Shown here one piece after another: positions 11,066-35,141 of a stretch of 35,956 bases of DNA (its first letter is position 1; each line of letters starts with the position of its first letter). Source of the DNA: an uncultured Porphyromonadaceae bacterium (GTDB lineage: Bacteria; Bacteroidota; Bacteroidia; Bacteroidales; Muribaculaceae); the NCBI GenBank assembly GCA_947177575.1, contig CAMWVA010000014.1:1-35956 (forward strand), read 5' to 3'. The position numbers were made by a program, and so were the translations under genes. Below the pieces are notes generated by a model that searched no databases, was not told where the DNA came from, and saw only the letters and a list, made by a program, of their open reading frames with translations.

Positions 11066-11686
11066 ATGTTGGTAATCGGAATAGCAGGTGGTACAGGTTC
11101 AGGTAAGACCACCGTAGTAAGACGTATAATAGAAAGTCTGCCTAAAGATGAGGTAGCTGTAATTCCGCAGGATTGTTATTATAATGATAATGCCCATATA
11201 CCGTTAGAGGAAAGGCTGAAGATGAATTATGATGAACCTGCTTCAATTGAGTGGAGTCTGCTTGCAAAGCATATTGAGATGCTGAAGAGCGGAAAGGCTA
11301 TTGAGATGCCTACGTATGATTTTCTTACGTGTTCGCGCCAGAAGGAAACTATAAGAATAGAGCCACGTGATGTAGTAGTAGTAGAGGGCATACTTGTACT
11401 GACTAATAAACGTATGCGTGAACTTATGGATGTCAAAGTATTTGTAGATGCAGATGCAGATGACCGTCTTATACGAGTTATAAAACGTGACTGTATTGAA
11501 AGAGGACGTACGCCCGAAATGGTGATAGAACGTTATCAGCAGACTCTTAAGCCTATGCATGAGCTTTATATAGAGCCTTCTAAGCGTTGTGCCGATCTGA
11601 TAATTCCTCAGGGCGGTAACAATAGTGTTGCCATAAAATTACTGACTGACTATATACGTTCGCTTCTTAAGTCGAATAAGCACTAA
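11066..11686 (+). CDS. udk: Uridine kinase
   Basis: 206 aa; GIAGGTGSGKTT P-loop, IPQDCYYND, FDEPASIEW-like (NYDEPASIEW), VVVEGILVL. Confidence 0.95.
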   Translation: MLVIGIAGGTGSGKTTVVRRIIESLPKDEVAVIPQDCYYNDNAHIPLEERLKMNYDEPASIEWSLLAKHIEMLKSGKAIEMPTYDFLTCSRQKETIRIEPRDVVVVEGILVLTNKRMRELMDVKVFVDADADDRLIRVIKRDCIERGRTPEMVIERYQQTLKPMHELYIEPSKRCADLIIPQGGNNSVAIKLLTDYIRSLLKSNKH

Positions 11687-11697
11687 AGAGTAAATAA

Positions 11698-12645
11698 ATG
11701 TTTTTTAAGAAAAAGAAAACATCTGTATTGCCTCCGGCAGAAGAATCTTTGCCAGTCAGAGAGGGAGAACAGGTACCAATGCCTGATATGCAACTGCGTG
11801 AGCAGGAGACTGAAATAATGGATAGTGCTAACGGCATGACGGAGGACATAACTATTGAAAGCGAGCAACCCGTCAAAGGTGTACTGAGGACAGACAATCT
11901 TGTGAAACGTTATGGAAAGCGAACGGTGGCTAATCATGTGTCAATAGATGTAACACAGGGCGAGATTGTAGGGTTGTTAGGACCAAACGGTGCCGGTAAG
12001 ACTACTACTTTCTATATGACTACAGGGCTTATAACTCCGAATGAGGGTAAGATATTTCTTGATGAGCGTAATATAACCTCATATCCTGTATATAAACGAG
12101 CACAGTTAGGTATCGGTTATTTAGCTCAGGAAGCCTCAGTATTTAGGAAACTGAGTGTGGAAAATAATATTCGTGCTGTACTTGAGATGACAGCACTTAG
12201 TAAAGAAGAACAGCGTGAGAAACTTGAAAGTCTGTTAGATGAATTCAATCTGCATCATGTGCGTCATAATTTAGGTGACCAATTAAGCGGTGGTGAGCGA
12301 CGTCGGACCGAGATAGCAAGGTGTCTGGCTATTAATCCACGCTTTATTATGCTTGATGAGCCCTTTGCAGGAGTTGACCCGATAGCTGTAGAAGATATTC
12401 AGTCAGTTGTGTACCGTTTGAAAGAGAAGAATATCGGTATTCTCATCACTGACCATAATGCACCGGAAACCCTAAGTATTACAGATCGTGCTTATCTGTT
12501 GTTCGAGGGCAAGATACTATTTCAGGGTACAAGCGAACAATTGGCAGAAAATCCAGTGGTAAGAGAAAAGTATCTGGGCCGTAATTTTGTGTTCAGACGT
12601 AAACATTTTGATTTTCCTGACACTACTGCATCAGATGTAAAATGA
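11698..12645 (+). CDS. lptB: LPS export ABC transporter ATP-binding protein, with N-terminal extension
   Basis: ABC ATPase: LLGPNGAGKTTTFYM, LSGGERRRTEIARCLA, FIMLDEPFAGVDP; LptB-like VLRTDNLVKRYGKRTVANHVSIDV preceded by ~60 extra residues. Confidence 0.93.
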   Translation: MFFKKKKTSVLPPAEESLPVREGEQVPMPDMQLREQETEIMDSANGMTEDITIESEQPVKGVLRTDNLVKRYGKRTVANHVSIDVTQGEIVGLLGPNGAGKTTTFYMTTGLITPNEGKIFLDERNITSYPVYKRAQLGIGYLAQEASVFRKLSVENNIRAVLEMTALSKEEQREKLESLLDEFNLHHVRHNLGDQLSGGERRRTEIARCLAINPRFIMLDEPFAGVDPIAVEDIQSVVYRLKEKNIGILITDHNAPETLSITDRAYLLFEGKILFQGTSEQLAENPVVREKYLGRNFVFRRKHFDFPDTTASDVK

Positions 12646-13541
12646 CGATTATCGGAAAAAAAAATTATCTCACTACACCTTCACGTGGTGTGGTGGGTAT
12701 GGGTATACTGCTGATTGGTCTTTTTGTAGGTCTAATACTGACGGTATGTATTTCAAGCTGTTTTGTATCTGGTGAGCCTACACGGACAGAATTGTTATGG
12801 CAATCAGTAGTTCAGAGTATAATGGCCTTCATTATTCCGACACTGGTTGTAGAGCGATATTTAGGTTATGCACCTTTATCTTTTTCAGGGTTATCAGAAC
12901 GACCTAATATAATAACTTTAGTGTGGGTTATAATAATTTATATATGTGGTTATACTGTATTAGGCCAGATAATAACTTATAACGAAGCTTTTCATCTTCC
13001 TAAATCATTACATACTCTTGAAAATACTTTGCGTAGCTGGGAAGAGAATGCAGCTGCTACTACAGCTCTTATACTTGATTCTTCTACTGTAGGAGGGCTT
13101 ATAGCAGAGATAATAGTAGTCGGTGTATTAACAGGCATGGCTGAAGAAATATTTTTCAGAGGTGGAATACAACGTATATTGTATCGAAGCGGTTGTAATA
13201 TACATATTGCCATTTGGGGTACAGCTGTAGTGTTCAGTGCATTACACATGCAGTTTTTCGGGTTTCTTCCACGCCTTCTGTTAGGAGCTTTCTTTGGTTA
13301 TCTGCTTTATTGGAGCAATAGTCTATGGCCTGGTATTTTTGCTCATGCACTTAACAATTCGCTTTATGTGACTGCTGTATGGTTGGATAAACGCGGGATA
13401 ATCAGTCAAGATATACTTGAAACAGGAGTGGTCAGCCAGGGGATGCCATGGATGGCTATAGTGAGTGCTCTTGTAAGTGCCGGGGTAATTACAGTAGCTA
13501 TGCAAAGTATTAAAAAAAGACATAATAAATCAATCGGCTGA
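12642..13541 (+). CDS. CPBP family intramembrane glutamic endopeptidase
   Basis: Hydrophobic; AEEIFFRGGIQ (EExxxR) plus ...HMQFFGFLPRLLLGAFFGYLLYWSNSLWPGIFAHALNNS. ATGA overlap with the lptB stop. Confidence 0.9.
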   Translation: MTIIGKKNYLTTPSRGVVGMGILLIGLFVGLILTVCISSCFVSGEPTRTELLWQSVVQSIMAFIIPTLVVERYLGYAPLSFSGLSERPNIITLVWVIIIYICGYTVLGQIITYNEAFHLPKSLHTLENTLRSWEENAAATTALILDSSTVGGLIAEIIVVGVLTGMAEEIFFRGGIQRILYRSGCNIHIAIWGTAVVFSALHMQFFGFLPRLLLGAFFGYLLYWSNSLWPGIFAHALNNSLYVTAVWLDKRGIISQDILETGVVSQGMPWMAIVSALVSAGVITVAMQSIKKRHNKSIG

Positions 13542-13575
13542 TATCCTTGAAGCCGTATAGAAAAGCATACCGCAG

Positions 13576-14616
13576 ATGGCTAAAAAATCAGAAATAGGCT
13601 ACCGAGATATTCTGAGTTCAATAAGACAAAAGAATTTTGCTTCGGTCTATATACTTATGGGGGAGGAGCCCTACTATCTTGATTTACTCACTAAAGCACT
13701 TGAGGCTAAGGTTATCGAAGATGAAACCACAAGAGAATTTAATAGTGTAGTGTTCTATGGTGCAGATGCAAGTATCGAAAAGGTCGTTGCAAGTGCACAG
13801 CAATTTCCGGCTATGGGAGGTTTACAACTGGTAATTCTGAAAGAAGCTCAGAGTATGCCCCAAGCTAAAAAGAGTCTCGATAAACTGGAAGGATATGTAA
13901 CACATCCTAACAAGACTACTGTGCTGGTGATAGTATTTAAAGATGATGTTCTATCATCAACTTCCAAATTAATTAAAGCTGCCTCTAAAGGTGGAGCAAT
14001 AGTTTATAACAGTGAAAAATTACGTGATTATCAGTTGCCATCGGCAGTTAAAGATTATTGCCAGCATAAAGGATTCAAAATAGAAGACAAAGCCGCTACT
14101 TTACTGAGCGAGTATATAGGATCACCACTATCAAAGCTTTTTGGGGAGATAGATAAATTATGTGTGGCTGTGCCTAAAGAAGCGGGACGCATCACTGTAG
14201 CAGATATAGAACAGAATATAGGCATTTCAAAAGACTATAATAATTTCGAGCTTGTCAAAGCTTTATCACGTCGGGACTATGTAACAGCTATGGGAATAGT
14301 GACGTATTTTAAGTCAAATCCTAAACAGAATCCTGTAGTTATGACTACAACAACACTGTTTAATTTCTATGTACGTCTTGTATTGGCATTGTTCAGTTCT
14401 GACCGTTCAGACAGCGGCTTAATGAAGGAACTTGAAGTAAAAAATATATGGGCTCTGACAGATGTAAAAGCAGGTATAGAAAATTATAATGCAGTCCAGG
14501 CTGTGGAGGCAATACACGTATTGCGTGATTTTGACTGTAAGACTAAGGGAATCGGCTCGAGTCAAAATGAGTATGAATTACTTCGGGAGCTAATATTCAG
14601 ATTAGTGACATTATAA
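13576..14616 (+). CDS. holA: DNA polymerase III subunit delta
   Basis: 346 aa; VYILMGEEPYYLD N-terminus and whole-length HolA-like layout (SKLFGEIDKLCV..., GISKDYNNFELVKAL). Confidence 0.92.
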   Translation: MAKKSEIGYRDILSSIRQKNFASVYILMGEEPYYLDLLTKALEAKVIEDETTREFNSVVFYGADASIEKVVASAQQFPAMGGLQLVILKEAQSMPQAKKSLDKLEGYVTHPNKTTVLVIVFKDDVLSSTSKLIKAASKGGAIVYNSEKLRDYQLPSAVKDYCQHKGFKIEDKAATLLSEYIGSPLSKLFGEIDKLCVAVPKEAGRITVADIEQNIGISKDYNNFELVKALSRRDYVTAMGIVTYFKSNPKQNPVVMTTTTLFNFYVRLVLALFSSDRSDSGLMKELEVKNIWALTDVKAGIENYNAVQAVEAIHVLRDFDCKTKGIGSSQNEYELLRELIFRLVTL

Positions 14617-14626
14617 GTAAAGCAAA

Positions 14627-15400
14627 ATGATATATTATTTTACCGGTAACGGCAACAGTGGTTATGTAGCTGCACGTATCGGAAGTTATCTACATGATTG
14701 TATAGAAAAAATAGGTGACTCTACCAGATTGTGTGTATCTGCCGAAGATAATGGTATAGGTTTGGTATTTCCAGTATATGCCTGGGGTGTGGCCCCACCG
14801 GTTACAGATTTTATAAACGGCTGGACCCTTGATGATATAAGGCGGATTAATACAGAAAAGATACCTGTATGGGCGGTTATGACCTGTGGTGATGAAGCAG
14901 GAGCATGTAGTGATATGCTTATTAAAATACTTGGAAAGAAAGGAATCAGCTTAGCAGGTGTATGGAGTATTATAATGCCTAATACATACGTGATTTTACC
15001 TGGTTTTGATGTAGATAGCCATGTGTTAGCACAGCAGAAGCTTACTTCAGCTATGGGGCGTATAAAAGAAATAGGAGATAAAATACAATCTTGTACATGG
15101 GAGACAGATGTGTGGCGTGGCAGCTGGCCACGTCTTAAGACACATCTTGTTTATCCATTGTTCAGGCGTTGGGGAATTAATCCCAAAAAGTGGAGTAAGG
15201 GAGAAGAGTGCATCAAATGCGGACAATGTGCCCGAGTCTGTCCTGTAGATAATATTCGAATGACACCAACCGGTCCTATATGGGGTAATAATTGCAAATC
15301 CTGTATGGCATGTTATCATAATTGTCCTAATCATTCCCTTGAATATGGAAAAGTTACTGTCAAAAAGGGACAATATAGAATCAAGGATTATGAGCTTTAG
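14627..15400 (+). CDS. EFR1-type ferrodoxin (flavodoxin-like domain plus 2x[4Fe-4S])
   Basis: YYFTGNGNSGYVA flavodoxin-like start; CIKCGQCARVCPVDNI and CKSCMACYHNCPNHS ferredoxin clusters. Confidence 0.9.
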   Translation: MIYYFTGNGNSGYVAARIGSYLHDCIEKIGDSTRLCVSAEDNGIGLVFPVYAWGVAPPVTDFINGWTLDDIRRINTEKIPVWAVMTCGDEAGACSDMLIKILGKKGISLAGVWSIIMPNTYVILPGFDVDSHVLAQQKLTSAMGRIKEIGDKIQSCTWETDVWRGSWPRLKTHLVYPLFRRWGINPKKWSKGEECIKCGQCARVCPVDNIRMTPTGPIWGNNCKSCMACYHNCPNHSLEYGKVTVKKGQYRIKDYEL

Positions 15401-15492: not shown

Positions 15493-15524
15493 TTTGTCTG
15501 AATAAAAAGAATAAACTAACTTTG
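15493..15524 (+). promoter_or_regulatory. Bacteroidetes-type promoter for the polysaccharide module
   Basis: TTTG (15493-15496), 20-nt spacer, TAACTTTG (15517-15524), 70 bp upstream of the 15595 ATG. Confidence 0.75.
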
Positions 15525-15594
15525 CCTATAAGGAGTAAGAATAGACTTTGCTTCCTTGGAATAACTAAAGTATATAACCCAAATAATAAAAAAC

Positions 15595-17967
15595 ATGCGT
15601 CTTGTAACGCCATTCCCTCACACTTTAGCAACAGATGTGAAGACTGTAGGAGTAAATACCACCTTACCCTTAGCTGGGTTGGGAAAGATAATCTCTGTCA
15701 AAATCTTATGCAGATTCGTTCTGAGAAAATGGTGGATACCGCTGGCGGGTATGATAGCTGGAGGGACCATCGGTTTTATTTTAGGTAAATTACAAAGTTC
15801 GGAAGTCAGACGAGCTATAAAGGTTATGGTAATTCCGGATCGGAATGAAACTTCATCACCTCCTGATCTTCTTGGCTCTTTAGGTGGAATCCAGAAATTC
15901 AATTATGATAATGATATAGCTATTCTTAAATCAACTACTCTTATGAGGGAAGTTGTAGAAGAACTGGATTTACAGGGCTTGCTTTATGATTGTAACGGGT
16001 GGCCGAAAACTCTTATATATGATCATAATAAATTACTGACAGCTAAAGTAACCGGAAATATGTTTATAAGGAGTTTCAGAATCAGGTTCAGTTCCGGCTT
16101 ACATAGCGGATTACTTGAGATAAGGGGAGATACTGAGGGAAAAACAAAAAGTTCTAAAATAGAATTGGGAAATAAGGATTCGGGAGATACAATAGCAGTT
16201 GATGGAGGCAGTATAATACTTAACCTGACTGTCGAGGGGGATAGAATCCGAAATGGTAAGTTTGAATATGAATATATGACCGTACCAGAACGTAGCAGTC
16301 AGTTGTTAAAGGGATTGACTATAATAAAATCTCAGGATAAGAGTAGAATAATTACTCTTGAGTATACTTCGCAATCATATCTGCTAAATGACAGATTATT
16401 GATGACATTATACGAATTGTATAACAATTATAACCAATCTCAAAAGACAAGACGTCTATTTGAGAAAGAGAAATTTTTTCTAAGCCGAGTTGAAAAAGTA
16501 GAATATGAGTTGCAAAAGATAGACAGTATTCTTAGTTCGCTTCTTATATTAAACCCATACGCTGCGGCTTATCTGGAGTTAGGAAGTAATCTTATTAATG
16601 AGGAGCTCCAATCAAGAAATCTAGTAATAGAAAGTGATAAATTATCATCACGTATTGAGCAAGCTCTGATAAATATCTATGAGTTGACTCCGGAAGAACC
16701 AATTTCTTATTCACTTACAGAACTGAGACCGGTAGTAGGGGAAATAATCAATGAACATAATTATCTTATAGAGCGTAGAGCACAACTTATTGAAGAAAGC
16801 AGTGAAGTGTCGCCAATAGTAACAGATTTAGACGAGTCTATCAGAAGACGTAGAGAAGCTATTATTAATTATCTTGAGACATTGCGATGGGAGCTGCCGC
16901 TGTCCTTAAGTGTGTCGAGACAATATAATGAAGAGATAGACAGTATGTTGCAGCGTTTACCAGATGATTTTACCAAAGTTACCCATATACGTCGGCAACA
17001 GGTGATAAAAGAGAATATTTATCAACAGTTATTAAAGCAAAGAGAGGAGACCGCTCTATTGATAAATGATGTTTCTGACCGTATGGAACTTGTTGAATTA
17101 CCCTATAATACGGCTTTAGCTAAAATAGATATAGAGTTAGCAGTCTTTTTAGGTATGATATTAGGTACAGTAGGCGGAATTATTATAATTGTAGGTATGG
17201 TAACTATAAGTAAAAAAATAGTCAGTCATCATCAGTTGAAAAGTTTAGGTTTACCTATAATAGGAGAAGTATCAAAGGCCAAAGTATTGGATGAAGGTAC
17301 TATTATGAAAATGAAAAAATATGAGTCACATTATAATAAGAATAAATATGATGAAAAAACAGTAGAAGAGTTTAGGTTAATACGTAGTAATCTTATGCGA
17401 GGTAAGAAGATAGGAAATTATAAAGCAACTATAATGGTAACTTCGATTGACCAAAGTTGTGGAAAAACATTTGTAGCACTACAATTAGCACGCTCATTCA
17501 CAAAAATTGGTAAACGAGTATTGTTAATAGATCTAAATTTTCGTTCTATGAATGGTTTGTCTGAAGCTTTGCTATGGCCAAGATATGGAATAACTCAATT
17601 GCTTCTACAACCGATACTTTCTTTTAAGGATTTTAATTTAGCCTGTCGGAAAATAGACAATATGTTATCAGTAATACCTATAGGAAACTTTAAAAATTTA
17701 GCATTAGATTTATTAGGTAATGAACGGTTGGAAAATATTATTGATACTTATCATGAAGAATATGATGTTATCGTATTGGATACAGTAGCGGCAGATATAT
17801 ATGCTGATGCTCGACTGATAGGGCGATGTGCTGACCATAAGGTAATAGTGATAAAGACAGGACAAACTGAACAGAATAAATTAAACGAAGTAATGGCAAG
17901 ATGTACTGAAGAAGAGTATAGAAAAAGTTGTATAATAATTAATTGCTTCGATGATATATACTACTGA
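15595..17967 (+). CDS. Wzc-like polysaccharide chain-length/BY-kinase-type protein (divergent nucleotide-binding motifs)
   Basis: 790 aa; N-terminal TM and Wzz-like region, long coiled coil, second TM (~aa 520), C-terminal MinD/BY-kinase-like ATPase domain (MVTSIDQSCGKTFVALQLARSF..RVLLIDLNFRS). Confidence 0.85.
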   Translation: MRLVTPFPHTLATDVKTVGVNTTLPLAGLGKIISVKILCRFVLRKWWIPLAGMIAGGTIGFILGKLQSSEVRRAIKVMVIPDRNETSSPPDLLGSLGGIQKFNYDNDIAILKSTTLMREVVEELDLQGLLYDCNGWPKTLIYDHNKLLTAKVTGNMFIRSFRIRFSSGLHSGLLEIRGDTEGKTKSSKIELGNKDSGDTIAVDGGSIILNLTVEGDRIRNGKFEYEYMTVPERSSQLLKGLTIIKSQDKSRIITLEYTSQSYLLNDRLLMTLYELYNNYNQSQKTRRLFEKEKFFLSRVEKVEYELQKIDSILSSLLILNPYAAAYLELGSNLINEELQSRNLVIESDKLSSRIEQALINIYELTPEEPISYSLTELRPVVGEIINEHNYLIERRAQLIEESSEVSPIVTDLDESIRRRREAIINYLETLRWELPLSLSVSRQYNEEIDSMLQRLPDDFTKVTHIRRQQVIKENIYQQLLKQREETALLINDVSDRMELVELPYNTALAKIDIELAVFLGMILGTVGGIIIIVGMVTISKKIVSHHQLKSLGLPIIGEVSKAKVLDEGTIMKMKKYESHYNKNKYDEKTVEEFRLIRSNLMRGKKIGNYKATIMVTSIDQSCGKTFVALQLARSFTKIGKRVLLIDLNFRSMNGLSEALLWPRYGITQLLLQPILSFKDFNLACRKIDNMLSVIPIGNFKNLALDLLGNERLENIIDTYHEEYDVIVLDTVAADIYADARLIGRCADHKVIVIKTGQTEQNKLNEVMARCTEEEYRKSCIIINCFDDIYY

Positions 17968-17987
17968 AATACTATAAATAAACTTTT

Positions 17988-19148
17988 ATGAAAGTAGCTA
18001 TTGTAACTCATAAATTACTCCATAATTATGGAGGTGTTCTACAAGCATACGCTTTACAGAAGGCTCTTAGAGAATTAGGACATAATCCTATAGGTATAGA
18101 CTGTGTTCCACCTTTGATGAGTCGGCATAGATATTTATTGGCCAATATAAAGACATTATGTTTTAGAATGATTGGTAAATATAATAGAAAATGGATTTCG
18201 TTTCCTATAGAAGAAAGGAAAGACTTTTTTAAAGACTTTTATAACAAGTATATGGCTTTAACTCCAATCTGTAAAAAGTATACATATAGTGTACTAAAGC
18301 AGATTGGTGCTAAAGCAATTATTGTTGGCAGTGACCAGGTCTGGCGATCATCATTTTATTCAGACAGAGGGTTATATATGGATATGTTTCTGAGATTTGC
18401 ATTAAAGTTTAAGGGTCTTAAGATAGCCTATGCAGCCTCATTTGGGATAGTAAATCTGGAAGTATCAAAAAAGGAGCAATATCTGTTACAATATCTAATA
18501 TCTAAATTTACTGCCATATCGACACGTGAACTTTCCGGAGTATATCTATGTAAGCAGCATCTGAAAGTTGATGCACTACATATATGTGATCCTACAATAC
18601 TACTTACACGAAAAGATTATATGCAACTTACAGAGAAACCAACCTATACTGATTATATATTTGGTTATATATTAGATATAGAACCAGTTACTGAAGGAGT
18701 GATTAAAAAAATAGCGAAACAACTTGGACTACAAGTCCGTATAGAAGGAGCGGAAAGTTCAGCATATATAAGTATAGAGAGGTGGTTAGGAATGATAGAG
18801 GGTGCTACTGCAATGATTACTAATTCTTTTCATGGTACAGTATTTGCTCTTATAACCCATACTCCATTTATTGTTATAGCTCATGAAGAAAGGGGGACAG
18901 AACGTTTATGTTCATTATTGAATAGTTTAGATCTTAATGAACGTATGGTAACTGATAATGTATATATAAAGGCGTATATGTTGAAAGAATATAACATTGA
19001 TTGGGAAAAGATAGATAAGAAACTGGAGACTATGCGTGTCGTCGGAAAACGTTTTCTTGAGGAAGCATTATGTGGTAAAACTACTAAAGAAATAGCACAG
19101 ATATTTTTGCGTGAGAAGTTATTAGACAGTCTAACTTCAAACTTATAG
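17988..19148 (+). CDS. Polysaccharide pyruvyl transferase family protein
   Basis: MKVAIVTHKLLHNYGGVLQAYALQKALRELGH, VGSDQVWR, ITNSFHGTVFALI motifs typical of PF04230. Confidence 0.92.
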   Translation: MKVAIVTHKLLHNYGGVLQAYALQKALRELGHNPIGIDCVPPLMSRHRYLLANIKTLCFRMIGKYNRKWISFPIEERKDFFKDFYNKYMALTPICKKYTYSVLKQIGAKAIIVGSDQVWRSSFYSDRGLYMDMFLRFALKFKGLKIAYAASFGIVNLEVSKKEQYLLQYLISKFTAISTRELSGVYLCKQHLKVDALHICDPTILLTRKDYMQLTEKPTYTDYIFGYILDIEPVTEGVIKKIAKQLGLQVRIEGAESSAYISIERWLGMIEGATAMITNSFHGTVFALITHTPFIVIAHEERGTERLCSLLNSLDLNERMVTDNVYIKAYMLKEYNIDWEKIDKKLETMRVVGKRFLEEALCGKTTKEIAQIFLREKLLDSLTSNL

Positions 19149-19151
19149 ATT

Positions 19152-20219
19152 ATGAAAATAGATGTGATTGTATCTGCTATAATACCCGGAGGAGGAATTA
19201 CAACCTTTGTAACACAATTATGCAAAAGACTTAGTAGTAAATATTTGGTACGGCTTATAGTAACTCATAAAGAAGTAGAAGAGGAACAAGTGATTTATCT
19301 TAATATGTTTCTAAGCCGTGGATTGATTGATATATCAAAATCATATAAACTATGGCGTTATATACGACTTATCCATATATGGAGAAGTGATATGCCGGAT
19401 TATATAATAAACAATTATAATGCTGTAGGACAATATGTATTACCTATATTGGCCAGTAGAGTAAGAAATCTACATATAGTACATGGTATAACACCAGATT
19501 TTAAGCGGGTCGCTACTATTAACAAGAGTTATACATCGCACTGGGTTGTTCCAAGTATAAAAACTGCTGAAATGATTATGACAGGTAACAAATCAGTTAG
19601 AGCAGAGGATATCACAGTCATACCACATGGTGTGGAAGAAATTTCAGAAGTAAATATAATTGGACAGAAGCTGCAGAATAAAATATTCCTGATATATGTA
19701 GGAGTATTAGAAGAGCATAAAGGTGCAGATGTACTTCCGGATATAGTAAAGCTGCTTGAAAAGAGAAATATATCTTACCAATTCAATATTATAGGTGAAG
19801 GTAGTCTGAGAGAAATACTCTGTAAAAATCTTGCATCTGAGATGTCTGAAGATAAAGTGCGACTGCATGGAGTAATAAGACATGAAGCAGTGCTTAAGAT
19901 GTTTACTCAGGCTAATATACTTGTCTATCCTACCCGAATAGACTCGTTCGGACTGGTTATAGCAGAATCAATGATGGCAGGCTGTGTACCTATAGTCGGA
20001 AAAATAGCGGGCGTGACCGATCAGATAATCGACAACGCCCGTGATGGATTCTTAGTATCGGTTAAGGCCGAAGAGATAGTACAAAAGATATGTGAACTTA
20101 GACAAGATTTTCAACTTCTTGAAAGAATGTCGGTACAAGCGAGATATACTGCCTCAGTTCGTTATTCTCTTACTGCTATGACTGAAGCTTATAATAGACT
20201 TTTAATCCAATTGTTATGA
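19152..20219 (+). CDS. Glycosyltransferase family 4
   Basis: GVLEEHKGADVLPDIV, IIGEGSLR, VYPTRIDSFGLVIAESMMAGCVPIVGKIAGVTDQI (GT4 E-x7-E region). Confidence 0.92.
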   Translation: MKIDVIVSAIIPGGGITTFVTQLCKRLSSKYLVRLIVTHKEVEEEQVIYLNMFLSRGLIDISKSYKLWRYIRLIHIWRSDMPDYIINNYNAVGQYVLPILASRVRNLHIVHGITPDFKRVATINKSYTSHWVVPSIKTAEMIMTGNKSVRAEDITVIPHGVEEISEVNIIGQKLQNKIFLIYVGVLEEHKGADVLPDIVKLLEKRNISYQFNIIGEGSLREILCKNLASEMSEDKVRLHGVIRHEAVLKMFTQANILVYPTRIDSFGLVIAESMMAGCVPIVGKIAGVTDQIIDNARDGFLVSVKAEEIVQKICELRQDFQLLERMSVQARYTASVRYSLTAMTEAYNRLLIQLL

Positions 20220-21401
20220 CATACGGTCACGATAGTCTTCATAAGTAAATTCTCTAAGTAGCTGAGGAGCTCCTTGAGAAGGCTGTAACCATATTGAAGG
20301 ATGCTGGAGTCCGTTAAACATAGTAGTTTTTACAGTAGTATAATGATTCATATCTTTTAAAGTGAGACGCTGGCCAGGAAGGAGAGGAGTTGAAAATGTC
20401 CAGTCGCCGACAAAATCACCGCTTAGGCAAGAATTGCCACCTAGTCTGTATGAGATACCATCTTTCTTATCAGTATCAGGTAATGATTCAGCAACAACCG
20501 GTTTATATGGCATTTCCAGACAATCAGGCATGTGACAGGCAAATGAAGCATCTATAATAGCAGTCCTTATACCAGCATCTTCGACTACATCAAGTACCTG
20601 CGTGATGAGATCACCTGTCTGCCATGTAAATGCACTGCCAGGTTCGATTATGATCTGCAGATGAGGATATTTATCGTGTAGTTTATTCATAATTTTTATG
20701 AAATGCTTTACGTCATAGTCACTTCGTGTAATGAGATGACCACCTCCCATATTCAGCCATTTTATGTGAGGTAAGAGATGACCGTATTGTTCCTCAAATG
20801 CATGGAGTACCTTTTCAAGGTCGTAGCTCGATGATTCACATAGAGCATGAAAATGCAAGCCCTCAATACCTTCTGGCAATCCTTCGGTAAGTTTAGACGG
20901 ATTTTCGCCGAACCGTGAACCCGGTACACAAGGATTATATATATCAGTTTCAATAACACTACAATGAGGATTAACTCTTAATCCTACAGAGACCGGGTTA
21001 TCCGGATGTGTATCATTCCATTTATCTATTGCGGTATGAAATCGTTCGAACTGAGCTAGAGAATTAAAAGTGATATGCGAACAACCTGCAAGAAACTTTG
21101 GAAAAGTTTCGTCAGTATATACCGGGCAGTAAGCATGCACATCATGCCCAAGATAGTCAAGCGAGAGTTTCATTTCATTGAGAGAGCTGGCTGTGGAAGC
21201 ATCAAAATATTCTTTAATGATGGGAAAAGTCTTCCATAGGGCATTGGCTTTAAAAGCCATAATAATCTTAATATCGGCTTTCTCTGCTACATTTTTAAGT
21301 TTCTGAAGGTTTGCACGTAATTTATCTTCATATATAATATAAAAAGGAGTAGGAATATCAGCTGTTGAAATAGGCTGACTATTGTTAAAAGTTTCAGACA
21401 T
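20214..21401 (-). CDS. nspC: Carboxynorspermidine decarboxylase
   Basis: PLP-dependent alanine racemase-fold decarboxylase: TPFYIIYEDKLRANLQ, MAFKANALW, LNMGGGHLITRSDY, IIEPGSAFTWQTG, RLGGNSCLSGDFVGDW. Confidence 0.92.
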   Translation of the reverse strand: MSETFNNSQPISTADIPTPFYIIYEDKLRANLQKLKNVAEKADIKIIMAFKANALWKTFPIIKEYFDASTASSLNEMKLSLDYLGHDVHAYCPVYTDETFPKFLAGCSHITFNSLAQFERFHTAIDKWNDTHPDNPVSVGLRVNPHCSVIETDIYNPCVPGSRFGENPSKLTEGLPEGIEGLHFHALCESSSYDLEKVLHAFEEQYGHLLPHIKWLNMGGGHLITRSDYDVKHFIKIMNKLHDKYPHLQIIIEPGSAFTWQTGDLITQVLDVVEDAGIRTAIIDASFACHMPDCLEMPYKPVVAESLPDTDKKDGISYRLGGNSCLSGDFVGDWTFSTPLLPGQRLTLKDMNHYTTVKTTMFNGLQHPSIWLQPSQGAPQLLREFTYEDYRDRMS

Positions 21402-21405
21402 TTAA

Positions 21406-23748
21406 TTAGAATTTAAGTAAATTAAACTTCGCGAATTTTAACATCAGTTTCTTTATACCGACAATACCGAAGTCAACTGTAATAGTCGGCTCACCTGATA
21501 ATTGTCCAAGAGCACGGACTTCCCCTCGACCATATTTATTATGTTCAATAACACTTCCTATCCGTAGGTCAGGGGTGTTAGTAGGGGTAGCAGAATGTTT
21601 CTGCAATACTTCTTTTAAGGGTCTTAGTGAAGAAGAGGCCTGGCCAGAAGACGTAGTGTTATGACGAGAGGTATTACCTGAAGAAAAAGAAGCTTTCTGA
21701 TTCCCTCGGCTGGTAGTAGAGTAGTTTGCTAAAGGATTAATAAATGATTTATTTGATTTAGCGGATGAAGATACAACTTTAAGGAATCTAGTATCAATCT
21801 CACCAAGAAAGCGTGAGGGCATAGTAGGAGTAGTCTGTCCATTTCGGAATCTGCTGGCAGCATAGGTAAGGGTACAGGTTGTCTTTGCTCTTGTCATGGC
21901 TACATAGAGTAATCTTCGTTCTTCTTCTACCTGTTCAGGAGATTCCATAGATAAAGCAGATGGGAAAAGCTCTTCTTCTACTCCAACTATAATAATATGT
22001 TTGAATTCAAGACCTTTTGCGGCATGTACAGTCATCAAAGTCACTTTGGGTTGATTATCTTCTTCCGTTTCATCCTGGTCTGTAGCCAACATGACCTCTG
22101 ATAAAAAGGCACGCATATCAGTCTCACCTTCACCGGTCTCTGTACGTGATTCTACAAAATCTTTCAGACCTGTGAGCATTTCAGTCAAGTTTTCTTGCCG
22201 ACTAATACTTTCAGGAGTATTATCGTGTGCCAATGAGGTGAGAATACCGGTACGATTATATATAAGCTGAGCTACTTCAAAAGCATTTGAGCCTGAAACA
22301 TTATCTTTAATAAACTCATTTATAAGAGAGGTAAAATTCTTTAATTTCTTTATTGTACCGGCATTAAGGCCTTCTATTCCTGTATTAATAGCCATCATAA
22401 TAGTCTGCCACAGTGAAGTTTTATTAGCAGAAGCTACGGTCTGAAGCTTTTTAAGAGTGGTTTCACCTATACCACGCGCCGGATAATTGATTATACGTCG
22501 TAATGCCTCATCATCGTCCGGATTAATGACAAGCCTAAAATAACAGATAATATCCTTTATTTCCTTACGTTGATAGAATGATAGTCCTCCATAGATACGA
22601 TACGGTATATTACGTTTGCGGAGAGCTTCTTCAAGCACACGGCTTTGTGCATTAGTACGGTACAACACAGCGTATTCGTCCAGACTATCATGACGAGTTA
22701 GTACAGATTGTGAAATCATATTAGCTACCAGATAAGCTTCTTCAAAATCACTGTATGTTTTGACTATTTTGACAAGCTCTCCCGTTTCGTTCTCACTGTA
22801 AACCGTCTTCTTCATTTGCCGGGTATTCTTGGCAATAAGACTTCCGGCAGCATTAATTATATTCTGAGTTGAGCGGTAGTTCCGTTCGAGTTTAAAAATA
22901 CGTAAGCCCGGATAGTATTTCTCCATAGTCAGAATATTAGAAATATTTGCACCACGAAATGAATAGATACTTTGGGCATCATCACCGACCACACACAGAT
23001 TGTTACCGACATCAGACAATTGTGAAATTATCAGGTGCTGGGCAAAATTGGTATCCTGATATTCATCTACAAGAATATAGCGGAAAAACTCTTGATAATG
23101 ACGTCTTATCTCAGGATGATCACGTAAAAGAAGATTCATATACACGAGAATATCGTCAAAATCCATAGCATTTGCCAAACGACACCGTTCGGAGTATATT
23201 GCAAATATTCTTGAAGTCAATGGTCTCTGAGCTCTACGATCCATATCATAGTACACGTTATGATACTGCTCCGGAGACATCATTGCATTCTTTGCATTAG
23301 AAATAGTAGCGGCGATAGTAGCAGGTTTATATATTTTTTCATCGAGATCTAACTCCTTGATGATTATTTTAATCAATGATTTAGAATCGTTGGTATCATA
23401 TATAGTAAAGCCTGGTTTGAAGCCAATCAGTTCTGTATGATGACGTAGTATGCGCAGAAAGATACTGTGAAAAGTTCCCATCCACAGACGTTGTGCTACT
23501 GAAGGATTGACGATATTGCAGATACGTTCTTTCATTTCACGCGCTGCCTTATTAGTAAAAGTAAGCGCCATAATGCGATAAGGCTCAAATCCACGCCGCA
23601 GAAGGTCTACTATCTTATATGTTAATACACGAGTCTTACCGGAACCAGCCCCGGCAATAACGAGCGACGGACCGTCACAGTAAGTGACAGCAGCACGTTG
23701 CTGTTCGTTCAATAAGTCAAGATAATTATAATTAATATCTTCTGCCAT
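21406..23748 (-). CDS. UvrD/PcrA-family ATP-dependent DNA helicase
   Basis: 780 aa; LNEQQRAAVTYCDGPSLVIAGAGSGKTRVLTYKI, LVDEYQDTN, VGDDAQSIYSFRGA, TVHAAKGLEF, LLYVAMTRAK. Confidence 0.96.
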   Translation of the reverse strand: MAEDINYNYLDLLNEQQRAAVTYCDGPSLVIAGAGSGKTRVLTYKIVDLLRRGFEPYRIMALTFTNKAAREMKERICNIVNPSVAQRLWMGTFHSIFLRILRHHTELIGFKPGFTIYDTNDSKSLIKIIIKELDLDEKIYKPATIAATISNAKNAMMSPEQYHNVYYDMDRRAQRPLTSRIFAIYSERCRLANAMDFDDILVYMNLLLRDHPEIRRHYQEFFRYILVDEYQDTNFAQHLIISQLSDVGNNLCVVGDDAQSIYSFRGANISNILTMEKYYPGLRIFKLERNYRSTQNIINAAGSLIAKNTRQMKKTVYSENETGELVKIVKTYSDFEEAYLVANMISQSVLTRHDSLDEYAVLYRTNAQSRVLEEALRKRNIPYRIYGGLSFYQRKEIKDIICYFRLVINPDDDEALRRIINYPARGIGETTLKKLQTVASANKTSLWQTIMMAINTGIEGLNAGTIKKLKNFTSLINEFIKDNVSGSNAFEVAQLIYNRTGILTSLAHDNTPESISRQENLTEMLTGLKDFVESRTETGEGETDMRAFLSEVMLATDQDETEEDNQPKVTLMTVHAAKGLEFKHIIIVGVEEELFPSALSMESPEQVEEERRLLYVAMTRAKTTCTLTYAASRFRNGQTTPTMPSRFLGEIDTRFLKVVSSSAKSNKSFINPLANYSTTSRGNQKASFSSGNTSRHNTTSSGQASSSLRPLKEVLQKHSATPTNTPDLRIGSVIEHNKYGRGEVRALGQLSGEPTITVDFGIVGIKKLMLKFAKFNLLKF

Positions 23749-23771
23749 AATAAAATATGTGAATTACAGAG

Positions 23772-24308
23772 TCAAATAATAGAGAATATATCTCCGTAAT
23801 CTGGAATATATGGTAAAAAACTGTATGAATCAGTTGTGTAATCAATCTGACAGCAATAATGTTTCAGACCGTTCGATACAATCAGAAAAGGAGTATGCAG
23901 CACCATATTATATCTTACAATCTGATCGAATGTAGTCTGAGAAATGGCTATATGAGGAGCCTTATATTCAATTATCATCAACGGACGACCATCAGATCTG
24001 AATACTACTGTATCACAACGACGTGAAGTGTTATTGAGAGTTATGCCAGCTTCTACAGCAATTAGAGAAAGAGGGTAGTGCAGGTACTCTGTAAGCCAAG
24101 AAATAAAATTCTGTCTTACCCATTCCTCGGGCGTGAGTTTAAGCCATTTATGGCGTATTCTGTCGAAGATTACCATTTTTCCAGCCGAATCTTTTTTAAT
24201 ACGTACTTTACCTGATGGAATATTTAGTTGTGGTAATCTATCTGACGATGAGAAACTATTATTTATCAGAGCGTACAAAAGAATTGAGAGGTGAATACTC
24301 AGTATCAA
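23772..24308 (-). CDS. Type I restriction enzyme R N-terminal-like (HSDR_N) nuclease-fold protein
   Basis: Conserved VIFDRIRHKWLKLTPEEWVRQNFISWL start region and PD-(D/E)xK-like RCDTVVFRSDGRPLMIIEYKAP. True start may lie downstream of 24308; the annotated ORF overlaps the upstream nuclease gene by 50 bp. Confidence 0.85.
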   Translation of the reverse strand: MILSIHLSILLYALINNSFSSSDRLPQLNIPSGKVRIKKDSAGKMVIFDRIRHKWLKLTPEEWVRQNFISWLTEYLHYPLSLIAVEAGITLNNTSRRCDTVVFRSDGRPLMIIEYKAPHIAISQTTFDQIVRYNMVLHTPFLIVSNGLKHYCCQIDYTTDSYSFLPYIPDYGDIFSII

Positions 24309-25080
24309 ATATAGAATTTAGGATATCAGCGAGACGTAAGCCTCCACGAAGAAACTGTTGTTCTACTACAGGCGTCCACTCAGCAATATAATCGTAACTC
24401 AAGGCACTATCTTCAGGAGTTGTATCATAGATTCTGGTAGCTATCTCATAAGTCTGTCTGCCCCATTCGTCGGGATTTGTGAGTGTAAAGACTTCTTCAT
24501 TAACAGTAGTGTCATTGCAGTCAATCTGTTGTGCCCACTCAGTATAACTCCATTTATGTGCCTGTTCGGGAAGCCAGCTATCCCATGCTGAATGTAAGTT
24601 TGAGTGTCGGTCAAAAAGTTTTACGCTATGTCGGTTACCTCCTAAATCGGAAGCCCGTCCCATGTGCATAGGCTGATGTAAATCACCCATGAAATGAACT
24701 ACCAATTTCAATGCCAATGCTTTCTGTTCTTTAGAACTGTCAGGATTATTCAGCAATTTAGTCTGTTCGTATATGGCCTGAACAATATTGCCTTCGGGAA
24801 TATTAGGGGCTGTATCATAGGAAAATTCCGGATCAATATTTTTATAATGCCAGGTCTTTGTATAGGCATATTCCGGAGTATGTGAAGCATTGTCCATCCA
24901 GTTAGCCCAATATACAATAGATTTTCCGTCAAGAATCTCGGTTATCTGTTGTTTAGCAACTGGTGTGAGATGGTTTTCGGCGATAAAAGCGACAGTATCA
25001 TGTCCTTTTTGCCCCCAGCCAAACATAGGAGCTGCTGAAAGAATAAGAAATGAAAGAGAGAGAAATGAATGTAGTTTCAT
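24259..25080 (-). CDS. S1/P1 family nuclease, secreted
   Basis: Signal peptide then WGQKGHDTVAFIAENHL, HYKNIDP, VHFMGDLHQPMHMG, GGNRHSVK, NLHSAWDS zinc-ligand motifs. ORF track extends to a TTG at 25116, but ATG at 25080 (MKLHSFLSLSFLILSAAPMFG-W) fits the signal peptide. Confidence 0.92.
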   Translation of the reverse strand: MKLHSFLSLSFLILSAAPMFGWGQKGHDTVAFIAENHLTPVAKQQITEILDGKSIVYWANWMDNASHTPEYAYTKTWHYKNIDPEFSYDTAPNIPEGNIVQAIYEQTKLLNNPDSSKEQKALALKLVVHFMGDLHQPMHMGRASDLGGNRHSVKLFDRHSNLHSAWDSWLPEQAHKWSYTEWAQQIDCNDTTVNEEVFTLTNPDEWGRQTYEIATRIYDTTPEDSALSYDYIAEWTPVVEQQFLRGGLRLADILNSIFDTEYSPLNSFVRSDK

Positions 25081-25096
25081 AATAAACAATGTATTA

Positions 25097-25136
25097 AAGA
25101 GAGAGAAATTCACCAATTGGTGAATTTCTCTCTCTT
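25097..25136 (-). terminator. 40-bp perfect palindrome, putative trxA terminator/attenuator
   Basis: AAGAGAGAGAAATTCACCAATTGGTGAATTTCTCTCTCTT is perfectly self-complementary; lies 64 bp beyond the trxA stop and 16 bp before the nuclease ATG. Confidence 0.6.
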
Positions 25137-25621: not shown

Positions 25622-25653
25622 CAAAGTTAGTTACAATAACTGAAATAGACAAA
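25622..25653 (-). promoter_or_regulatory. Bacteroidetes-type promoter for trxA
   Basis: On the minus strand TTTG (25653-25650), 20-nt spacer, TAACTTTG (25629-25622). Confidence 0.7.
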
Positions 25654-35026: not shown

Positions 35027-35058
35027 CAAAAGTAGTAAAACTAAGTGTAACAACCAAA
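35027..35058 (-). promoter_or_regulatory. Bacteroidetes-type promoter for lon
   Basis: Minus strand TTTG (35058-35055), 20-nt spacer, TACTTTTG (35034-35027). Confidence 0.65.
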
Positions 35059-35109: not shown

Positions 35110-35141
35110 TTTGGAGAAAAGAGCCGAAAGGATTACTTTTG
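35110..35141 (+). promoter_or_regulatory. Bacteroidetes-type promoter for the tRNA methyltransferase gene
   Basis: TTTG (35110-35113), 20-nt spacer, TACTTTTG (35134-35141). Confidence 0.65.

Follow-up and report, generated by a model that had tools for sequence, protein, structure and literature searches.

The analysed window, a stretch of 35,956 nucleotides, carries three intact open reading frames on the plus strand between positions 15595 and 20219, encoding a putative Wzc-like PCP-2a protein of 790 amino acids (15595..17967, +), a PF04230 polysaccharide pyruvyl transferase of 386 amino acids (PVT; 17988..19148, +) and a GT4-family glycosyltransferase of 355 amino acids with a D-x7-E motif (19152..20219, +). 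Only 20 bp separate the Wzc-like gene from the PVT gene and 3 bp the PVT gene from the GT4 gene, while the 3' end of the latter overlaps nspC tail to tail by 6 bp, an overlap that is identical in the sister species described below. A Bacteroidota-type promoter of the form TTTG-N20-TAACTTTG (15493..15524, +) precedes the genes, as judged from motif counts and conservation: the window has four perfect matches to TTTG-N20-TANNTTTG where 0.13 would be expected, and the sister species keeps both promoter elements together with the stretch proximal to the start codon, while much of the upstream spacer has diverged. The earlier note's description of a tight three-gene cluster behind a strong promoter was therefore confirmed in its ORFs, gaps, domains and promoter motif, and what is shown here reads as a single tight operon behind one conserved promoter. 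The other three perfect matches (25622-25653, −; 35027-35058, −; 35110-35141, +) precede an S1/P1 nuclease-like ORF, lon and a methyltransferase-like ORF, respectively. An imperfect inverted repeat of 17 nt (82%) surrounds the operon promoter; an invertible promoter was considered and rejected, the promoter having the same orientation in both species.

The assignment of the pyruvyl transferase is based on a Pfam score of 126.9 bits against a curated cut-off of 25.3 (E = 1.8e-36) and on a motif alignment in which the SFHG motif is kept. The domains of the GT4 enzyme likewise exceed their cut-offs (PF00534, Glycos_transf_1, 1.1e-25), and its EX7E-like motif carries an aspartate in place of the first glutamate, a replacement also found in four more distant relatives that were aligned. 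Decay of either enzyme was considered and rejected, as the family motifs are kept and the alignment with relatives gave no sign of it.

The GC contents of the Wzc-like, PVT and GT4 genes (0.346, 0.331 and 0.355) are all below that of the lowest other window gene (0.361) and compare with 0.400 ± 0.023 for the other genes of the window, in agreement with the previous claim that the module is more AT-rich than its flanks. As its codon-usage distance is unremarkable and falls inside the range of the other window genes, the compositional signal is one of AT-richness, not of alien codon usage. The source assembly comprises 3.2 Mb at 86.5% completeness, and the contig on which the window lies (C14) has a GC content of 0.395 without the module, compared with 0.425-0.489 in 22 of 24 other stretches sampled from the same assembly, which could stem from a binning error but more probably from a chromosomal region that is itself low in GC. 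Because the source genome has one copy each of nspC and EFR1, the same region is also low in GC in the sister assembly, whose contigs reach down to 0.40, and shared stretches on other contigs of the two genomes mostly match at about 85-99% protein identity, contamination of the assembly was judged unlikely.

The Wzc-like protein is predicted to cross the membrane twice (TM1 about 46-66 and TM2 about 516-540, both spans read from sequence) around a periplasmic region and to continue in the same chain into a cytoplasmic P-loop ATPase domain (about 585-787; AAA_31, 1.7e-7). Matches to Wzc, Etk and EpsG profiles cover residues of about 447-783, PDB matches to Wzc and to CapA1-CapB1 were obtained, and the protein aligns with Wzc proteins over residues 34-788 at 24-27% identity. 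The Wzz and GNVR Pfam domains, both present in the other Wzc of the genome, were undetected in the Wzc-like protein, so that the PCP assignment rests on the two transmembrane segments and these near-full-length alignments. A structure prediction with the sister sequence as the only other row gave a mean pLDDT of 30.7 and was too poor for use.

Comparison of the ATPase domain with 55 Wzc homologues, chosen from search hits and numbered according to E. coli K30 Wzc by our own mapping from a phmmer alignment, revealed a selective pattern of conservation. The equivalents of G539, K540, T541, D562, R566 and D642 are kept as G623, K624, T625, D646, R650 and D729, together with both RxxR arginines, and the P-loop lysine corresponding to K624 is present in all 55 homologues. 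In contrast, the equivalent of D564, the second Walker A' aspartate and an aspartate in 55/55 homologues, is N648 in both species, where the Walker A' motif reads D646-L-N648. In the PNPxE loop, the equivalents of P616 and E618 (both 55/55) are replaced by alanine and aspartate in both species and that of N615 (54/55) by leucine, while the Walker B proline P645 (55/55) is alanine or serine and P536 (46/55) is glutamine or histidine. The last 40 residues contain 3 and 2 tyrosines in the two species against a homologue median of 7, and the tail past the core measures 7 and 13 residues against a median of 28, with a few of the comparison proteins also being short or tyrosine-poor. In Wzc, residues A534-P536, P645-L647, E675 and S679 make up the tyrosine pocket, and the active site that receives the incoming tyrosine is marked by D564 (PMC11986026).

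The alignment thus shows a loss of kinase motifs, and we infer a loss of kinase activity; by the measure of a pseudokinase, several motifs are lost, but the P-loop and two aspartates are kept, and some kinase or ATPase activity may remain given the retained Walker A lysine and threonine and these two aspartates. The degeneration of the kinase motifs is a point absent from the earlier note and new here. We regard it as improbable that the protein is an active, divergent BY-kinase that phosphorylates another protein instead of its own tail: although the P-loop GKT, the first Walker A' aspartate, Arg650 and the Walker B aspartate are kept in both species, such an enzyme would have to operate with asparagine at a position invariant among the 55 homologues and after the loss of the pocket prolines, the PNPxE loop and the tyrosine-rich tail.

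The window ORFs, four of which were profile-scanned and the remaining ones named from sequence, include no recognised wza, flippase, polymerase or priming transferase. The reported lack of Wza, flippase and priming transferase in the window accordingly held, and such genes are encoded elsewhere in the same genome. Contig C11 carries a canonical wza-wzc pair whose Wzc has a tyrosine-rich tail, adjoined by an ORF that we take for a CpsB/YwqE-type phosphatase, while contig C124 encodes glycosyltransferases, a UDP-GlcNAc 2-epimerase and a priming transferase. A second priming transferase is located on contig C119, and six flippase-family genes (PF01943) are distributed in the genome, in which the PVT gene of the window is the only PF04230 gene found. 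On C124, the genes for the UDP-GlcNAc 2-epimerase and the priming transferase are separated by one for a FAD-linked oxidase of 966 aa that contains a 4Fe-4S domain (L151 6370-9270). The lack of any recognised export or polymerisation gene nearby, together with the undetected Wzz and GNVR domains, could also be accommodated by a small self-contained pathway, with a glycolipid or glycoprotein as its product, for example, and with the Wzc-like protein as a membrane ATPase and not a polymer co-polymerase. We consider this quite unlikely in view of the alignment with Wzc proteins over nearly the entire chain and the availability of Wza and flippase-family genes in the genome. In several other genomes of the genus (G041:C16, G018:C2, G028:C4 and others), proteins of 540-590 aa weakly match the PCP part only (E about 1e-6 to 1e-4) and are possibly kinase-less PCPs.

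For two of the module genes, distant homologues occur within larger EPS loci in other genera; genes of these loci beyond the BLAST-matched ones were named by sequence appearance, not by profile. The closest PVT found (43%) and a close GT4 homologue (35%) occur together in locus L148 of genome G213, which belongs to another genus of the same family, and this larger EPS locus also holds wza, a canonical wzc, an 11-TM flippase-like gene and other glycosyltransferases. Its Wzc is 24% identical to the Wzc-like protein and 42.5% identical to the canonical Wzc of the source genome. The GT4 relatives in G281 and G173 likewise lie in loci with wzc-like and other glycosyltransferase-like genes. A literature search for a precedent in Muribaculaceae EPS or pyruvyl transferases returned nothing directly relevant.

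Within the genus, a close copy of the Wzc-like protein was detected in one other genome (G148; 77% identity, next best 27%), and the trio was not found in 109 of the 111 genomes; since many of the comparison assemblies are incomplete, absence from a single genome is weak evidence, which does not apply to the overall pattern. A scan of the named genome collection yielded one matching contig, CAMWKC010000188.1, corresponding to the same sister locus, and a family-wide sample of 397 genomes, with two candidates scored in each, gave nothing above 27% besides the query genome. Both genomes that carry the operon, the only two found, are fragmented assemblies: one contig of the sister species contains holA, EFR1, the Wzc-like gene and a PVT gene broken at the contig end, and a second contig contains the remainder of the PVT gene, GT4, nspC and the end of uvrD. 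The sister species hence presents the same genes in the same order at the same EFR1/nspC junction, with near-complete, intact copies and a module identity of 72-77%. Conservation of the trio at this locus in all relatives, or the remainder of a canonical EPS locus adjacent to it in other strains, had been named earlier as observations that would speak against a module; the former contrasts with the 2 of 111 genomes carrying the trio, and the latter was not observed at this locus.

Pairwise dN/dS values between the two species amount to 0.179 for the Wzc-like gene, 0.249 for the PVT gene and 0.222 for the GT4 gene, with 0.150 for the ATPase domain alone; the genes, including this domain, are under purifying selection. 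Since dS of the module (0.65-0.72) is close to that of the flanking genes holA, EFR1 and nspC (0.68-0.82), the module has been diverging for about as long as its flanks. This is read most simply as an operon that predates the separation of the two species and has been under selection ever since. These values also bear on the idea that the operon is the remnant of a complete EPS locus that lost most of its genes, with the remaining three drifting and the kinase motifs decayed. Such a history would explain why relatives of the PVT and GT4 genes reside inside larger loci, why the Wzc-like pair forms by far the longest branch in a tree of 46 proteins (stem 2.27 against 1.09 for the next longest) and why the two species do not agree even with each other at positions 620, 621 and 732. 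However, it is hard to reconcile with ORFs that are intact where readable in both species, with dN/dS values of 0.15-0.25 that include the ATPase domain, with the conserved promoter and spacing and with an Asn648 common to both species, and we judge it unlikely. Between the remnant and the small module offered as alternatives by the earlier note, the lack of the trio in 109 of 111 genomes and the presence of the machinery elsewhere favour the small module, which has no relation to the housekeeping genes around it, while the intact ORFs, the gene-wise dN/dS of 0.18-0.25 and the conserved promoter argue against the remnant.

The module is flanked by the blocks udk-lptB-CPBP-holA-EFR1 and S1P1-typeI-uvrD-nspC, which are shuffled relative to each other across the genus. 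EFR1 and nspC were adjacent in none of the ten other genomes in which both blocks were readable, which places the module at a rearrangement point. In addition, the flanks available for 29 other nspC loci, of about 1.5 kb at most, contained neither GT4 nor EFR1, nspC was absent from the available flank of 28 other EFR1 loci, and no EFR1-nspC junction lacking the module was seen in the genomes examined. Each block (11066-15400 and 20214-25116 of the window) is largely conserved in itself; their order and orientation vary, often with lipA or lipB between them.

The limited distribution and AT-richness of the trio might be taken to indicate that the module was recently inserted by horizontal transfer at an EFR1-nspC site that was otherwise empty, but this appears very improbable, as the sister species has the module at this very position and its dS is close to that of its flanks, which contradicts a recent event, and EFR1 and nspC are not adjacent in the other genomes examined. 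Moreover, the inverted repeats near the module ends were all imperfect or short (10-17 nt), and no transposase ORF was recognised by eye in the window. Because the trio occurs in 2 of 111 genomes and the best family-wide matches of its enzymes lie in larger EPS loci, the module was probably acquired or relocated before the split of the two species, and it is neither recent nor decaying. The proposal that it had been acquired or relocated between holA/EFR1 and nspC therefore remains likely, whereas a simple recent insertion into an empty site is not supported; an older insertion that preceded the split is possible and compatible with the explanation that follows.

On balance, we lean towards an intact, vertically inherited three-gene operon of two sister species of gut bacteria in one Bacteroidales genus, which probably modifies a surface polysaccharide and encodes a PCP-2a protein with a pseudokinase-like domain together with two enzymes that would tailor a glycan built by genes elsewhere. 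In such a pathway, the GT4 enzyme would transfer a sugar onto a lipid-linked repeat unit, with the PF04230 enzyme attaching a pyruvyl ketal, while the Wzc-like protein, as a PCP-2a co-polymerase of the inner membrane, would control chain length and link polymerisation to glycan export, with Wza, flippase and priming enzymes supplied from unlinked genes elsewhere in the genome. Its cytoplasmic domain probably still binds nucleotide, given the conserved P-loop lysine and threonine, first Walker A' aspartate and Walker B aspartate, and may still oligomerise through the conserved RxxR motif. A cycle of tyrosine autophosphorylation is probably impossible with asparagine at the second Walker A' position and with the pocket prolines, PNPxE loop and tyrosine-rich tail gone. 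The probable loss of this cycle suggests a role as a phosphorylation-independent scaffold, by analogy with EcpK and HfsB, although fused to its own PCP. A more far-reaching reading, which we put forward tentatively and with some doubt, is that of a phosphorylation-independent PCP-2a of the Bacteroidales whose fused domain would now be a nucleotide-binding scaffold, in an operon that could serve as a portable tailoring cartridge taking over chain length, glycosylation and pyruvylation of a glycan assembled elsewhere.

The current model of PCP-2 function rests on tyrosine phosphorylation cycles (PMC12004946), and fused PCP-2a proteins that are kinase-dead by nature and under selection would put the need for such a cycle to the test. 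The canonical, wza-linked Wzc in the same genome makes a direct comparison possible, and the tailoring enzymes form a small, defined pair.

Among known systems, the Wzc-like protein resembles E. coli Wzc (e.g. 7nhr), a PCP-2a with a fused BY-kinase, with which it shares two transmembrane segments around a periplasmic region, a C-terminal P-loop domain and the conserved P-loop lysine and threonine, Walker B aspartate and RxxR motif. Unlike E. coli Wzc, it has no second Walker A' aspartate, Walker B proline, PNPxE loop or tyrosine-rich tail, its Wzz and GNVR domains were undetected and its gene is not located beside wza. The best PDB match of the domain is S. aureus CapA1-CapB1 (4jlv, 2.6e-17); CapB1 has been called inactive (PMC3795738), and its aligned motifs GAGKS, IDGDMR and DTPP look intact, unlike those of the Wzc-like protein. 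With regard to its genes, the operon resembles the G213 EPS locus in the pairing of PVT and GT4, and differs from this larger locus with its wza, canonical wzc, flippase-like gene and other glycosyltransferases. EcpK of Myxococcus and HfsB of Caulobacter are BY pseudokinases proposed to work without tyrosine phosphorylation (PMC12004946), and the Wzc-like protein resembles them in its polysaccharide gene setting and in a BY-kinase-like domain from which several catalytic motifs and the tyrosine tail are missing. However, both are stand-alone partners of a kinase-less PCP while the present domain is fused to its PCP, and EcpK is devoid of any Walker motifs whereas the Wzc-like protein keeps the P-loop GKT (PMC12004946). 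Fused variants of PCP and BY-pseudokinase (e.g. SMc01795 and VV1_2305) have been described in several Proteobacteria and are attributed to Cuthbertson et al. (PMC12004946). The Wzc-like protein may be likened to these, by description and not by sequence, as a PCP joined to a domain described as a pseudokinase; in contrast to these proteobacterial proteins, it belongs to the Bacteroidales, and the detached operon that encodes it adds only one glycosyltransferase and a pyruvyl transferase.
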